NCBI GenBank assembly: GCA_002682825.1
Contig: NOKP01000002.1
Location: 3,103,378-3,167,377, forward strand
Length of the DNA stretch: 64,000 bases
Direction: 5' to 3'
Source of the DNA: Neonectria sp. B-13
Lineage: Eukaryota > Ascomycota > Sordariomycetes > Hypocreales > Nectriaceae
This document shows positions 1,227 through 54,302 of the stretch, one piece after another. Position 1 is the first letter of the stretch; the number at the start of each line of letters is the position of its first letter. The notes under the pieces are model-generated. The model was not told where the DNA came from, did no database searches, and saw only the letters and a program-made list of their open reading frames with translations. The position numbers and the translations under genes were made by a program.

Positions 1227-1322
1227 TGCTCCCGGCAGGGCTTGAACCTGCGACCTTCGCATCACCAACACTTGCAAGTTGAAGTATTAGTACGAAGCTC
1301 TAACCAACTGAGCTACGGAAGC
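1227..1322 (-). tRNA. tRNA-Ile(AAT) with a canonical 37/38 intron
   Basis: Read on the minus strand, the acceptor arms GCTTCCG and CGGGAGC pair, the D-stem is GCTC/GAGC and the T-arm is GCAGG/CCTGC around TTCAAGC. The anticodon stem TCGTA/TGCGA closes a loop with CT before AAT, giving an isoleucine AAT anticodon. A 22-base intron sits one base 3' of the anticodon, the standard position for fungal tRNA introns removed by the tRNA-splicing endonuclease. A T-rich run (minus strand, near 1192-1199) about 30 bases downstream could terminate RNA polymerase III. It contrasts with the tRNA-Arg genes at 14.5-18 kb, whose insertions lie in the D-loop. Confidence 0.95.
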
Positions 1323-13726: not shown

Positions 13727-14535
13727 TGCAGCTCGAGAGGATGAATTGAGAGGAATTGAATGGGCGATGGTCGACTTGGTTTGCTCAATCGGTTGAAGTT
13801 GGCGCGTCGGGCTCGACTTAAGCGTTCTTGATGCCCCGCCGACGCCGGAGGGGAGAGTCATCCGCTTTGGTGGGTCGCTGATAGGGAGGGAACTGCAAAT
13901 TCAATCTAGCCGGGGAGCGGGAGTGGACTGGCTACATGAGGATGACTGCATCGTCGTGGATTTCCCAGTCACAGATGCCTGTATCTGCAATTTGATCCGG
14001 CTGCTCGAGGCTTAGCCGCACACAGTTGACTCACTGGCTCGCGATGCGTCAGTCTGTGGTATTCGCGATGGGGTTGGAAGACGCGGGTGACTACCCTGCA
14101 CACTAGGAAATTGATCACATTTGCTCCGGTTCTCGTATCTCACAACGCCGATATGATATTTCCATTGGAGAAGTAGGTGGAACAGCTGTTGGCTAACTAC
14201 CATCTCTCTTTTTTCTGTGTGACATTTCCTGACGTGGATATATGCTTTGGTTTTATGCGGCGGGGTGAGGGGTTCCTTCAAGCATTTTATCTAGGTTGGT
14301 GAGTGTTGTGTTAACGAAAGAAGACACTGGATAATGCCATTACGCCACATGGCTGGAGACAAGAAATAGAGCCAAGAAATGCTAAGAGAGCACCGTAGTA
14401 CTAGTGCATAGAATTAGCAGTGGATTGATGGCATGCTCCTAAGTCTTGCTGAAACAGCATTGCCCGGATCGTACATATTGTGCCATGTTCAGACGATATA
14501 TAGGAAAATAAAGCCTCTCAACCCCATCAAACATC
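13727..14535. other. Spacer between HIS5 and the first tRNA-Arg
   Basis: No gene is recognised. HIS5 transcription should start in the proximal part. The distal part is AT-richer than the neighbouring genic DNA. Confidence 0.5.
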
Positions 14536-14663
14536 GGTCGCGTGGCCCAATGGGTAAGCATTATCATATATCTTGGATACCAACCAACATTTAACTAACA
14601 GCATCTTCAGCAAGGCGTCTGACTACGAATCAGGAGATCGTGGGTTCGAGCCCCACCGTGACC
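14536..14663 (+). tRNA. tRNA-Arg(ACG) with a D-loop spliceosomal-type intron, copy A
   Basis: 5' part 14536-14553, insertion 14554-14610 (57 bases), 3' part 14611-14663. Joined, the 71-base RNA folds cleanly: acceptor GGTCGCG/CGTGACC, D-stem GCC/GGC, anticodon stem TCTGA/TCAGG with loop CTACGAA (anticodon ACG), T-stem GTGGG/CCCAC around TTCGAGC. There is no intron at the usual 37/38 site. The insertion falls after the GG of the D-loop, starts GTAAGC, contains AACTAAC and ends CAG 11 bases later, the pattern of the mRNA introns in neighbouring genes. The A box (TGGCCCAATGG) ends exactly at the insertion and the B box (GGTTCGAGCCC) is intact. A T4 terminator lies at 14669-14672. The tRNA call is firm; the splicing mechanism is inferred. 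Confidence 0.93.
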
Positions 14664-15258
14664 TAAACTTTTGACCTTGCAGGCAACTGTGAGATTTAAT
14701 TTTTGCTGCTTATGGTACCTCTGTTTAATGTAGAGAGTCTGGCATCTTATCGTTTCAGCACGAACATTGACGGGATTCTATTGATTTTCTTCCTAGGTGG
14801 ACTTCAATCTGCTTGAGCATATTGAACTTCGCCGTCGGCAGTCAACAGGCCTTACTTAACAAGCTAGTTAATGCGTTGTAACTGTAAATCATAGTCCTCA
14901 TTGTTTAAACCGACGACCAGAGCAATGCAGTGAGTGACAAGCGGAAAGCAATGGTCCAGTCGGACTGGAATTTTAGATTTACTAACCCGCCAATGTCATT
15001 GATCTGCGTTAGAGGTTACCAGGGGCCGAGGTCCTTCTAAAGCGACTCTTGGGGTCGGAAGGGATTGACGTAGAAAGTCGTCTTCAGGGCTAAAAAGTCT
15101 GCTATTCACTTCTAATATACCCTTTCCCACTAGGATCGAAAACAGCAACTAGGTTTTCAGCATGAGTGGGGATGGAGATCGACAACGCAGCGAACGTCCT
15201 TGTGGATGAGAGAATGAGGAATGAGCAAAATGGTGAGAACGTTCAACAAAAAAGTGAA
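14664..15258. other. Spacer between tRNA-Arg copies A and B
   Basis: AT-rich DNA holding the RNA polymerase III terminators of both flanking, convergent tRNA genes and no recognisable coding sequence. Confidence 0.6.
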
Positions 15259-15383
15259 GGTCACGGTGGGGCTCGAACCCACGATCTCCTGATTCGTAGT
15301 CAGACGCCTTGCTGGAGGTTTGTTAGTTGATTGTTGCAGATGTGATAAGTTGTAGTGTGACATACCCATTGGGCCACGCGACC
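15259..15383 (-). tRNA. tRNA-Arg(ACG) with a D-loop spliceosomal-type intron, copy B
   Basis: Minus strand: 5' part 15383-15366, insertion 15365-15312 (54 bases), 3' part 15311-15259. Both tRNA parts are identical base for base to copy A. The insertion has a different body sequence but begins GTATGT (the commonest fungal mRNA donor), has AACTAAC and ends CAG 10 bases after that motif. A run of six T on the minus strand (15253-15248) follows the gene as a terminator. This copy points toward copy A. Confidence 0.93.
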
Positions 15384-17523
15384 GTGTGGTTGTTGTTGGT
15401 GCCGTCGTTACTTTAGTATAGTGACCTTAGTGACCCCACCATGAAGACACCAAACCGGCCCAAATCGGAGGAGCCCGTATTGCTAACGTGACAGCAGCAG
15501 TCTCCGTGCTCGAAAGGAGAAGTATTAATTGAGCGAAGATATCGCGCTCCTAAGATGCAGATGACTCGGATGACGACGTAAGGGAACATGCGGAGGAGGA
15601 AAAGTACAGGAGGAGTGAGTGGATGTGGAAGCTGACTTCACTAAGAGGTGAAATGGACCAGCCGACAGCGCATGGCTAAACATGAACGACCTTGCTGTAA
15701 ACGAATCAATCCACCGAAGCCCGTGATGCCTAGTCTTCTGCTGACAACTAAGGCGGAGGAGACTGCCAATGTTTTCTTCCGGCAAATTATACCCAAATCA
15801 AGTCTTACACCACCTCGCTCCTCGAGATCGCCTCTGCTGTCCCATCTGGCTCTGGGATATAATTGCCCCGAGAGGAGACGTAATCATCCCAGACTGTTAA
15901 TGGATTTGTACTCATTGTTGTACCGTGGGCTGTTACTAATTTCTTATTCATTGGAGCCGCGAGAAGATATCCCACATCGAAAGTAGCAACGCCTTCTTAA
16001 GAATACACTGACAAGAAACCATTTCTTCCTTCGCTCTTATAATTGCATTCCCTTGTTCTACGACAAAAAGCACCTTCTATTCAAGAGATAATAAGAGAGT
16101 AAGTCGAAAGCAGAAAAAAAACACAGCAAGTACAGGTTAGTGACACCCCTTCCTCTGGATGATGATGATTATGATAATGATGATGAAGTTACTTAATTGA
16201 CTTCCTAGAACCTTGACACCAAGCCCAGATAAAGCTCGCAATAGCCTTCCCCAAAACCTCCAAAGTGGTCTCTGGCTCAGTCTGATGATATTTCGCTGGT
16301 GAAGAATCACCTCACAGACAGTCTTATTCAGACTATTTCAACAAAATTGTTCGAATATGATACAAGCCTTAGCGGGAAACTTGCCTCGTACCTAGTAAAG
16401 GCTCTGTGTAATTTTCTGGAACTGCTGCGTTGGAAGTCATGGGAAATTATCCAACATTTTGCACTGATACGTCTGAATATGGTGAGTGTGCGGATCCGAC
16501 ATATCCGTGGATAAGAATGCCCCCCAAGAAAGGCTTACAGGCAAATCATAACAAAGTCATCGACATGTGGGATCGATGGCACCAGCGAGAACACACAGCT
16601 GATCGCAACCGTTTGCGGCGTGACAAGTACGTATGGTGGCAATCCTCCGCGGGCATTAAGAAGCTGCACGACCAACATACCGACAACACCCTGATGTTAC
16701 CTCACCTGCTGGTGGTTCTGGCTGTCTGTACACCGGCATAGAAATGGATTGCTCGGAAAGAAACCTTTATGTATTCCTTGATGGTTGGAAGCATCCAAGT
16801 GCAGGCTCACCTCAACAATGGAGAAATAGAGAGGCTCGTAGTTGGCTGCCCTCGCCTCGAGACCATGTTTTCCCCACACCCCGCATTCTATGTACAGACG
16901 ACCCATGGACGAGGCCATCAACTTCGTCGTTGAAATTTCAGGTCCGACGGATGTGCTCATCCTGGATTATTATCTTATCCGCAGGGGAATTGACAAGGAG
17001 AACCCGGCGGGACAATGTCATCTCCGTGGCCACGAGAGCCGTGTGGTTCTTGTCGCAAGGACGAGGAACTTTGGAAAGGAGACCGGTGTGCAGCTGGACA
17101 TGGCCAGATCCCCAAGGTCATCACAAAGATATACGCCGTTAATTTGAGCGTTAGCCATTCGCCTATAGATATTCCACTGAAGTGAGCCAGACAGTCCCCA
17201 GACACCCCAGAGTCGTAGTGGGCTTTCGAAGCATTAAATACACATGCGGAGTTGGAGGGCTGGAGTCTCTGACAGCGTATCGAAAAGAAAGTACAAGATG
17301 ACGGAGGATACTGCAGCTAATTCAAGGGCTCACCAGACCTGATTGACCACAACGTGTGCCTTGTGATTGCATTGAGCTGATTGATGAAGGTAAGTTGCCA
17401 GGTTCGCACTTCGGGAGCCAGACCACGTGATAAGCCCCGCAGACGCCTCGAATATCTCCACACTAAGCGCATGCCCACAATATAGAGCACAGAATCGAGC
17501 CGTTTAACTCATCAAAACTACAC
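15384..17523. other. Spacer with unassigned short reading frames
   Basis: No confident gene. It has a GAT-rich tract near 16159-16187. Between about 16300 and 17150 several plus-strand frames have fairly protein-like composition, for example 16430-16741 (with YGECADPTYPWIRMPPKK) and 16842-17147 (with MDEAINFVVEISGPTDVLIL), but they lie in different frames and no set of introns I can see joins them. They may belong to an unrecognised spliced gene or a decayed one. Confidence 0.35.
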
Positions 17524-17646
17524 GGTCGCGTGGCCCAATGGGTAAGCATTTCTAAAGCTGTCAATGATGATTTCATAACTAACAATCCTCAAGCAAGGCG
17601 TCTGACTACGAATCAGGAGATCGTGGGTTCGAGCCCCACCGTGACC
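17524..17646 (+). tRNA. tRNA-Arg(ACG) with a D-loop spliceosomal-type intron, copy C
   Basis: 5' part 17524-17541, insertion 17542-17593 (52 bases, the shortest of the four), 3' part 17594-17646. The tRNA parts are identical to copies A, B and D. The insertion begins GTAAGC, contains AACTAAC and ends AAG 10 bases later, so it is the only copy with an AAG rather than CAG acceptor. A T5 terminator follows at 17652-17656. Confidence 0.93.
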
Positions 17647-17789
17647 TTCTCTTTTTGCTCTACCATCTGAATACTTCATTCACTTTTTGTTAACATCGGA
17701 CCAATTCGACATTAGAACAGCATGGCAAGCAAGGTGATCTAACAAGCAATTCCCAATTTATTTGACTATGAACTGATAACTAAACTTGT

Positions 17790-17842
17790 CTAGTAAGTTG
17801 TTGGAGTGTGAACTATGAGGTTGTGGGTTCCCTGCTGTGACT
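17790..17842 (+). pseudogene. Decayed 3' half of a tRNA-Arg(ACG) gene
   Basis: The stretch aligns by eye to the 3' part of the neighbouring tRNA-Arg genes: it keeps a TAAG-like start, GTGAA where the others have ACGAA, a nearly intact GTGGGTTC of the T-arm and a damaged TGTGAC acceptor end, then a T-run at about 17846. Directly before it is AACTAAAC followed by CTAG, which looks like the branch and acceptor of a degenerated D-loop intron. The 5' half is not clearly recognisable and the T-stem no longer pairs fully. It sits between copies C and D, as expected for a dead member of the same family. Confidence 0.6.
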
Positions 17843-17921
17843 GTTGTTTTTGCTTTGTTCAGGATGCTTGGCTTCCACAATATGGTACGCAAAATCAAGA
17901 AAAATTCCAATGAAACCACCC

Positions 17922-18047
17922 GGTCGCGTGGCCCAATGGGTAAGCAGCATTCACAAACACTCGCCATGAAACAAGCAACTAACACACAATCCAGCAAGGC
18001 GTCTGACTACGAATCAGGAGATCGTGGGTTCGAGCCCCACCGTGACC
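17922..18047 (+). tRNA. tRNA-Arg(ACG) with a D-loop spliceosomal-type intron, copy D
   Basis: 5' part 17922-17939, insertion 17940-17994 (55 bases), 3' part 17995-18047. The tRNA parts again match the other three copies exactly. The insertion starts GTAAGC, contains AACTAAC and ends CAG 11 bases later. Its body is AC-rich and does not resemble the other three beyond the first few bases and these signals. A T5 terminator lies at 18053-18057. Same orientation as copies A and C. Confidence 0.93.
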
Positions 18048-19137
18048 TTTACTTTTTGCTCTTTCTTTCTGCTGTTGTTCACGATATGAGTCGATTCGAC
18101 GTGTTTAACTAAGGTCGACATGACATACTGTACACCAGGACACGGCTTCCAAGTAAACGTGTCTAAAGCCTGGGCGTTACCAGTTGTGGCCTCTCAATTT
18201 AAGGCATTGATGTACCTACCTTGTACTTTGTAGGCTACCGGTTGTTATGGTGCTCTTGGATAGGCTAGCGCTGTTAGATGAAGAAGAAAATTTCCCAGCC
18301 GTTACCAAAGCGCGAGCCTCATCTTTTGCCAACACAACAAAACGAAACAGTGATAGTGTCGGCCAACTGTGACTACGTTTGACCGTACGAATAAACGCGT
18401 TCACCGCTCGACAGCCGCTTGTCTCACTCTAGCCGCGCTGCCCTGGTACGATCCATTGCCCGTGGTCAATCGTCATTGCTGTTCGACCCCCGTCAAACGG
18501 TCAAATCAAACTATTGCGACCCCCAGGTCGAGACGGTCGCACGCCACCATCCTCGGACCAGGCAGGCCACCTAAATCCTGATCATACCCTGGGACCAGGA
18601 CTCAGGAGCGTCAACCCGGTACTTGTTCCCCTGTGCTTTGTGCTTGTGCTTTGTGCTCTGTCCAGTCAAGCATCAACCGGCCGCCGAGATATACTTGATA
18701 CGCTGCATGCAGGGCGGCACCTGGTCGCACACAGTCCGCGTCCGCGGCGTCGAATAGCCGTGACGGAAGCGGTCAACCTCCGGCCACCTCGCCCCACACA
18801 ACCTCGCTCAACGTCGTCTCTCAGCTCTGCGATTCCAATCCCGGCCCGCGTCCACAGCCTCCAGGCCTTCGCCCGTTGTCTGAGCGTGTCTGCCCAGCCC
18901 GATCCCGACCCCGACCGACCCATAGCCCGCCCAGTGCCATCGACCGACCGAGTCGCGCCCATCGCGCCCATCCATCGAACCGTCCGTCGCCTGTCGCCTG
19001 TCGCCTGTCGCCTGCCGCCTGTCGCCTGCCGCAGCGAGCACGCCCTTGGACGCCCTGCCGCTGCCACTGACGCCCTCCGCTCCGCCTCCCCTTCCGCTGC
19101 TACCGCTCCCGCCGCGATCAAGCGCCGCCCTGCCGCC
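18048..19137. other. Spacer and probable leader of the SS18/Snf11-like gene
   Basis: No gene is recognised in the first part. The final 300 bases are C/T-rich with direct repeats of CCTGTCG/CCTGCCG near 18985-19035 and carry the promoter and leader of the following gene. The frame of its first exon is open upstream to 18514, but the composition there is not protein-like. Confidence 0.5.
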
Positions 19138-52775: not shown

Positions 52776-54302
52776 ATGTCGCCCGCATTCATCCTCTCCG
52801 TCATCGCGGGCGGCCTCAGCGTCGTTGCGCTTGTCTACGGGCTGAAGGGCTTTGCCTGGGCCTTCAGATGTCTCGCCGCCGCCATCCCCACTCGCTATCA
52901 TCCTGCTGAGAGGCCCGAGGATGAGCGCATCCAGATCCTCGTCGTCGGCGACGTCGGTCGGAGTCCTCGCATGCAGTACCATGCGATGAGCGTTGCCAAG
53001 CATGGAAGAAACGTCGACATCGTCGGCTACAAGGGTTGGTGTTTGCTTTGGCGTGCTTCCAATTCTTTGACTGATGCTTATAACTCTTAGAGACGGCCAG
53101 GCATCCCGATCTCATTGGGAACCCACGAGTCACCATGCATGCACTCCCACCGCAACCCGAAGTGCTGCAATGGGGAACTCTGCCATTTTTCCTAAGTATC
53201 CCATGCAAGGTCATCTGGCAATTCTGGGGTCTCTTCTCCACATTGATGTATTCTGCGCCTGCAGCCCAATGGATCATCATCCAGGTGAGCCTCGTTGGCA
53301 TATCCCAAAACGCACTGAGCCTGACAGAACCAACGATAGAACCCTCCCTCTATACCTACCTTTCATGTTGTGCTTCTTGTTTCCCTCATCCGGGGTAGTA
53401 AGCTCGTCGTGGACTGGCACAACTATGGATACACCATCTTGGCCCAGAACAAGTGGTATAGGCCTCTCGTTCCCATCTACAAGTGGTACGAGACCTTCTT
53501 TGGGCGTTTCCTCGGCAATGCCAACCTTTCCGTCACCGATGCCATGGCCCGTCAGCTCAAGCAGAGGCCGTTCAATGTCAAGAATCCAGTATACACGCTG
53601 CACGACCGACCGGCTGAGGTCTTCCAACCTATGAAGTCACCAGAGGACCGAAGGGCATTCCTATCAAGACTCCCAGAGACGAGGGCCGATGCCAAGAACA
53701 TCATGGATTCGACGGTACGCCTGATTGTCAGCAGCACTTCGTGGACAGCAGACGAGGACTTTGGCCTGCTCCTGGATGCCCTAGTGTCGTATGCCAATTC
53801 CTACGAAGGCACCATCGGCGATACGCCGTTGCCAATTCTCGCCATCATTACTGGAAAGGGTCCCCAGAAGGAACAATATTTGGAGCGGATCAAGAAGCTT
53901 CAAGAAGAGAGCAAACTCCCGGGCATCCGTGTCATCACGGCCTGGCTCTCCACACGCGACTACGCCTCATTACTCGCTTGTGCCGACCTTGGCATCTCCC
54001 TGCACAAGTCTAGCTCAGGAGTCGACCTCCCCATGAAAGTTGTGGATATGTTTGGTGCAGGCCTTCCCGTCGCGGCCTACTCGGCTTTCGAAAGCTTCGG
54101 AGAGCTCATCAAAGAGGGACAAAACGGCTGCGGGTTCGAAACCTCGTCTGAACTGACGGCCATTCTCCGGAGGCTGCTCGGCGTGACGGGGGAGAAGGAG
54201 CTGGCCCTGTTGAAGCACGGCGCGGTCCAGGAGGGGTCCTTGCGATGGGACGAGGAGTGGGATCGAGTTGTAGGAAAAGTGATTGGAGTTGTGGATCAGT
54301 AA
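52776..54302 (+). CDS. ALG1: Chitobiosyldiphosphodolichol beta-1,4-mannosyltransferase
   Basis: Three exons: 52776-53034, 53091-53284, 53340-54302 (471 aa), introns of 56 and 55 bases. The enzyme adds the first mannose to GlcNAc2-PP-dolichol on the cytosolic face of the ER. An N-terminal membrane anchor ([18 protein letters not shown]) precedes [49 protein letters not shown] (joined at the second acceptor), [13 protein letters not shown] and the late [20 protein letters not shown] signature of glycosyltransferase family 33. For the second intron I chose the acceptor at 53339 because an earlier CAG at 53327 leads directly into a stop. Confidence 0.95.

Follow-up and report, generated by a model that had tools for sequence, protein, structure and literature searches.

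Can a nuclear transfer RNA (tRNA) depend on the spliceosome for its maturation? Textbooks assign the removal of nuclear tRNA introns to a dedicated endonuclease and ligase, and the question is raised by a stretch of 64,000 nucleotides from the fungus Neonectria sp. B-13 (contig NOKP01000002.1, positions 3,103,378 to 3,167,377 of the forward strand; hereafter, the window), in which an earlier note, made from the sequence alone, had described four tRNA-Arg(ACG) genes with D-loop inserts resembling messenger RNA (mRNA) introns. All four genes are real, and their places, the common 18-base 5' part and 53-base 3' part, and the insert lengths of 57, 54, 52 and 55 bases are borne out by the sequence, but the set proved too small. 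Elsewhere in the genome (60.9 Mb, 123 contigs searched), there are three further copies, C1a (C1:4239857) and C1b (C1:4239649), which lie 208 bases apart, and one on contig C51; all seven genes carry the insert at one and the same site, which by hand count lies between D-loop positions 19 and 20. A histidinol-phosphate aminotransferase of this genome is 96% identical, over 87% of the query, to its counterpart in Neonectria punicea, so the protein, too, indicates a Neonectria-like ascomycete, probably in the Nectriaceae. Judging from the features described below, the spliceosome very probably removes the insert in all seven cases; the precursor is likely a polymerase III transcript.

Splice signals, insert bodies and the spliced tRNA

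The inserts are 52-57 bases long, and the splice signals are present in each of them. The donors are GTAAGC (four inserts), GTATGC (two) and GTATGT (one), all with the GTRNG core; CTAAC is found in every insert, in agreement with the pattern of CTRAY before AG, with the branch A 11-12 nucleotides (nt) from the intron end; and the acceptors are all AG (six YAG and one AAG, in the copy at 17524). For the window copies, the earlier description of AACTAAC, donors GTAAGC or GTATGT and ends CAG or AAG holds, GTAAGC being found in three and GTATGT in one, CAG in three and AAG in the copy at 17524; outside the window, CTAAC is without the leading AA in two of the three copies (ATCTAAC in C1b and TACTAAC in the C51 copy). 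When the inserts were shuffled base by base, the layout GTRWG...CTAAC...AG did not arise in any of 200,000 shuffles. As a side observation, GTAWGCAT is the start of five of the seven introns, its C at donor position +6 being a departure from the usual T.

Between the donor and the branch, 15 of the 21 pairs of insert bodies are no more alike than shuffles (P above 0.05), and six pairs (e.g. C1a with 17922 and C1a with 17524) retain traces of common descent. The exons are identical in six of the seven copies, and the two base differences of the C51 copy are both outside the stems. Such maintenance of exons and splice signals while the insert bodies drift fits spliceosomal introns in old duplicate genes. 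The mRNA introns of Fusarium are 42-529 nt long, a range that includes the length of the inserts; 93% of them have G at +5, and 91% contain CTRAY (PMC5677156). The likeness to mRNA introns of the flanking genes, also asserted previously, is seen but is weaker than claimed: the comparison is with five putative introns of 50-87 nt, predicted in the window from bridging open frames by a filter that itself demanded a GTRNG donor, a CTRAY branch and a length of 46-89 nt.

With the insert removed in silico, ARAGORN recognizes a 72-nt tRNA-Arg(ACG) in all seven cases, and with the insert left in, in none; when longer introns were allowed, the C51 copy was called Arg(TCT) with a 428-nt intron, and the other six were not reported. 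Given these misses and the miscall, ordinary annotation may overlook the tRNA-Arg(ACG) class. The predicted D-loop junction after joining is ...CCCAATGG/CAAGGCG..., and the spliced D-arm GGCCCAATGGCAAGGC is equal in length to the D-arm GGCCCAGTGGTAAGGC of the tRNA-Thr(CGT) of this genome; the discriminator is U73 in all seven genes, giving 72 nt. The cloverleaf, initially described as perfect, is a good one that contains a C13/A22 mismatch and G-U wobbles (hand-counted).

The seven loci could, alternatively, be pseudogenes or decayed mobile copies, with another tRNA reading CGU and CGC. This would agree with the behavior of the gene finders: the unspliced window copies were reported by neither ARAGORN nor the Rfam tRNA model, and the unspliced C51 copy scores 24.2 bits with the latter, below the cut-off of 29. 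However, such decay is hardly credible in view of the sameness of the exons amid diverged introns, the T runs and U73 in all seven copies, and the failure of four genome searches to find another Arg(ACG) gene. Seven matches each were obtained with the exact 5' part, with the anticodon arm (up to two mismatches) and with the spliced tRNA in BLAST; the loose pattern CTACGNA...GTTCRA gave eight, seven from the tRNA-Arg(ACG) family and one not tRNA-like (backward control, seven). An uninterrupted tRNA-Arg(ACG) gene was not found in any of these searches, which would miss a gene that has diverged strongly and has a variable loop of a different length; thus, the supply of this tRNA by intact genes, which the earlier note had raised as a challenge to its own proposal, finds no source among the genome matches.

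Eukaryotes decode CGU and CGC with tRNA-Arg(ACG), in which A34 is edited to inosine. In six selected open reading frames (ORFs) of the window, CGT, CGC and CGA together make up 142 of the 190 Arg codons, and tRNA-Arg(ACG) is expected to read most Arg codons of Neonectria sp. B-13.

Endonuclease, spliceosome and the transcribing polymerase

The position of the inserts, 19/20, departs from 37/38, which is usual for Sen-type introns in eukaryotic nuclei, and the introns that ARAGORN detects in other tRNAs of this genome, including those for Ser, Val, Thr and Glu, are at 37/38 or next to it. The tRNA-splicing endonuclease might still be the enzyme that cuts the inserts, if they are ectopic introns like those in the nuclear tRNA D-loops of Cyanidioschyzon merolae, which are described at bulge-helix-bulge folds (PMC3978253). 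In a test that took the best of nine offsets per intron, this fold was found in none of the seven inserts, which form 2-3 of the 4 pairs of the central helix and 0-2 of the 3 pairs of the outer one, whereas both ordinary introns of the same genome used as positive controls with hand-placed boundaries, those of tRNA-Ile(AAT) (window 1227-1322) and tRNA-His(GTG), passed with 4/4 and 3/3 pairs. Furthermore, the insert bodies are mostly unrelated although the fold would require exon pairing, and cutting by the endonuclease leaves GTAWG, CTAAC and AG in all seven inserts unexplained. We therefore regard endonuclease removal as highly improbable. A group I or group II self-splicing intron was also considered and rejected, the sole Rfam match over the cut-off in the window being the tRNA at 1227-1322; an insert of 52-57 nt is too short for a group I or II catalytic core.

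The last base of the A box TGGCCCAATGG directly abuts the intron, and all seven tRNA-Arg(ACG) genes have a B box. A run of four to six T starts 5-22 nt past the acceptor stem in each of them; among ordinary tRNA genes, a run of at least four T starts within 30 nt in 32 of 40, compared with 7% of random window stretches. The sequence CTTTTTGC is found downstream of four of the seven genes and also at ordinary tRNA genes. The T run after every tRNA-Arg(ACG) gene, as at most of the examined tRNA genes, points to transcription by polymerase III, which the A box, the B box and the T-run terminator together make the likely source of the precursor. An alternative that has the spliceosomal step in common would invoke a longer, capped transcript made by polymerase II. 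The spliceosome acts mostly on polymerase II RNA, and two pairs of tRNA-Arg(ACG) copies lie within approximately 400 bases of each other; nevertheless, this origin of the precursor is very improbable given that the A and B boxes are intact, that a T4-T6 run soon follows all seven genes and that one of the window copies is on the opposite strand.

Under splicing of a polymerase III transcript, the reading we prefer, polymerase III would transcribe the gene, whose A box is intact up to G19, whose B box is intact and whose terminator is the T run; U1 would recognize GTAWG and U2 would recognize CTAAC; the insert would leave as a lariat, with GG joined to CAAGG; and end trimming would come after splicing because the insert would disturb the contact between the D-loop and the T-loop. 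The proposal of spliceosomal removal made in the earlier note gains support from the signals in seven of seven inserts, the lack of a bulge-helix-bulge, the lack of an uninterrupted bypass gene and the polymerase III-type terminators. Because tRNA-Arg(ACG) reads CGU and CGC, translation in Neonectria sp. B-13 would depend on spliceosomal tRNA splicing. It is probable that an entire class of nuclear isoacceptors, and the only one to read CGU and CGC, no longer uses the endonuclease and ligase pathway and owes its maturation solely to spliceosomal processing of a polymerase III transcript.

Several observations weigh against this scenario. A 5' exon of 18 nt and a precursor that is predicted to be uncapped are both unusual for the spliceosome. 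Six of the seven inserts have C as the sixth donor base (+6), which is found in 16% of Fusarium mRNA introns, in which T is usual (66%), and the AAG/C acceptor of one insert belongs to a class that is rare in Fusarium (RAG/Y, 2.18%; PMC5677156). Local mRNA introns offer a weak and in part circular comparison, with only five candidates and a filter that demanded the same signals. The search for uninterrupted genes covered the assembly, which may lack a copy. Finally, the minimum-energy fold of the spliced RNA is at -26.8 kcal/mol and the cloverleaf at -23.1 kcal/mol, so that an alternative fold is preferred by 3.7 kcal/mol; unmodified tRNA commonly folds by minimum energy into a non-cloverleaf form.

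Range within the genome and known systems

As far as tested, the spliceosome-type intron is confined to tRNA-Arg(ACG), the search patterns covering donors right behind the D-loop GG, or a CTAAC branch ahead of a GGTTCGANNCC box. A pattern that places a donor right behind an A box yielded 13 matches genome-wide, of which seven are tRNA-Arg(ACG) and six are not tRNA-like (backward control, 10); the same pattern with one extra D-loop base also yielded 13, as many as its backward control, and no B box lies within 260 bases downstream of any of them. The branch-to-B-box pattern had 28 matches (backward control, 23), comprising seven tRNA-Arg(ACG), 10 tRNA-Glu(CTC) and 11 others. The tRNA-Glu(CTC) matches were rejected as ordinary introns in genes whose D-loop by chance reads GGCTAAC (two judged from the locus sequence and eight from the matched stretch); seven of the 11 others were assessed, of which five fall in four loci where no tRNA was found and two are repeats of an examined one. 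The tRNA family search scored 63 of 1,967 candidates and the U6 search 47 of 3,129; the two U6 matches reported in the genome align over their full length (103 and 106 bases), so that these two copies have no intron. Scans of viral and prokaryote contigs gave nothing useful, the nine matches of one viral scan being without a nearby B box.

Ordinary tRNA introns of this genome differ in how far their copies have diverged. The tRNA hand-read as Ile(AAT) is present in four copies (window 1227-1322, L055, L062 and L063) on contigs C37 and C39, the last three labelled Thr(AGT) by ARAGORN and Ile(AAT) by hand; their canonical 22-nt introns are nearly identical, unlike the diverged D-loop introns of tRNA-Arg(ACG). 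In the tRNA-Glu(CTC) cluster (C34:861526-876129 and C2:1187813-1188521), the canonical introns vary in length and sequence between copies. Separately, contigs C114 and C60 look like whole-length palindromes, given mirror-image pairs of places at 177372/1398821 and 422208/1153985 in C114 (1576192 long, each pair summing to 1576192 + 1) and at 54067/242566 and 92271/204362 in C60 (296632 long, each pair summing to 296632 + 1); such palindromes may have arisen by fold-back during assembly, in which case genes on them are counted twice. Mirror pairs were not seen among the Arg(ACG) matches.

No tRNA with a spliceosomal intron was found among the matches listed from openly licensed PMC literature, a body of text that leaves subscription papers and preprints uncovered. 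The nearest precedents are introns in two other fungal RNAs, U6 and U3. Spliceosomal introns are found in U6 snRNA genes of S. pombe and other fungi (Tani and Ohshima 1989, 1991; Canzler et al. 2016; via PMC10484740, PMC5832005), and there, as in the case described here, the RNA interrupted by the mRNA-type intron is short, structured and of the polymerase III class; U6, however, is a spliceosome component with the intron near its catalytic bases, whereas here the RNA is a tRNA and the intron is in the D-loop. Fungal U3 snoRNA, likewise non-coding and structured, has a spliceosomal intron of the ordinary kind, but it is no tRNA, and there is direct evidence in two fungi (PMC5832005), whereas the tRNA-Arg(ACG) introns are predicted from sequence. 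In fungal ribosomal DNA, mRNA-type introns are similarly located in a gene that is not transcribed by polymerase II, in that case a polymerase I ribosomal RNA rather than a tRNA (Rogers et al. 1993, via PMC11782384). The 37/38 introns, whose removal is the work of the Sen endonuclease and tRNA ligase, share with the inserts their location in nuclear tRNA genes and are present in other tRNAs of this genome, but the tRNA-Arg(ACG) inserts lie elsewhere in the gene, without a bulge-helix-bulge and with splice-site and branch signals. The introns of C. merolae share the location in the D-loop of a nuclear tRNA and form the bulge-helix-bulge that the tRNA-Arg(ACG) inserts do not form (PMC3978253).

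The coordinates of the window copies, and of one tRNA outside the family for contrast, are given in the table; the site of the tRNA cluster (window positions ~13800-18500) is a stretch of ~4.7 kb without an ORF of at least 200 amino acids.

Table. Exons and putative spliceosomal introns of the tRNA-Arg(ACG) genes in the window, with a contrasting tRNA
Feature	Window positions	Strand	Remarks
Copy 1 (14536-14663), 5' exon	14536..14553	+	acceptor 5' strand, A box TGGCCCAATGG intact, D-loop to G19
Copy 1, 57-nt intron	14554..14610	+	GTAAGC...AACTAAC...CAG
Copy 1, 3' exon	14611..14663	+	anticodon ACG, B box GGTTCGAGCCC; U73 at 14664; T4 run 14669-14672
Copy 2 (15259-15383), 5' exon	15366..15383	-	
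Copy 2, 54-nt intron	15312..15365	-	GTATGT...AACTAAC...CAG
Copy 2, 3' exon	15259..15311	-	T6 run just beyond
Copy 3 (17524-17646), 5' exon	17524..17541	+	
Copy 3, 52-nt intron	17542..17593	+	GTAAGC...AACTAAC...AAG
Copy 3, 3' exon	17594..17646	+	T5 run just beyond
Copy 4 (17922-18047), 5' exon	17922..17939	+	
Copy 4, 55-nt intron	17940..17994	+	GTAAGC...AACTAAC...CAG
Copy 4, 3' exon	17995..18047	+	T5 run just beyond
tRNA hand-read as Ile(AAT), outside the family	1227..1322	-	22-nt intron at 37/38; passes the bulge-helix-bulge test

Translation and the origin of the introns

If the proposed route is correct, tRNA-Arg(ACG) would be, as far as the openly licensed literature searched, the first tRNA class that can be made only via the spliceosome, and the spliceosome would be able to handle a first exon of 18 nt in an RNA that is short and uncapped. 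It would also be explained why tRNA finders can miss a tRNA-Arg(ACG) gene. With regard to origin, fungal tRNA D-loops such as GGTAAGGC resemble a donor (G/GTAAGG), so that the D-loop may, speculatively, be predisposed to intron gain; the entry of introns into polymerase III genes would become datable on the Nectriaceae tree. In Neonectria sp. B-13 itself, translation would be tied directly to the capacity of the spliceosome, and inhibitors of the spliceosome would be direct inhibitors of translation.

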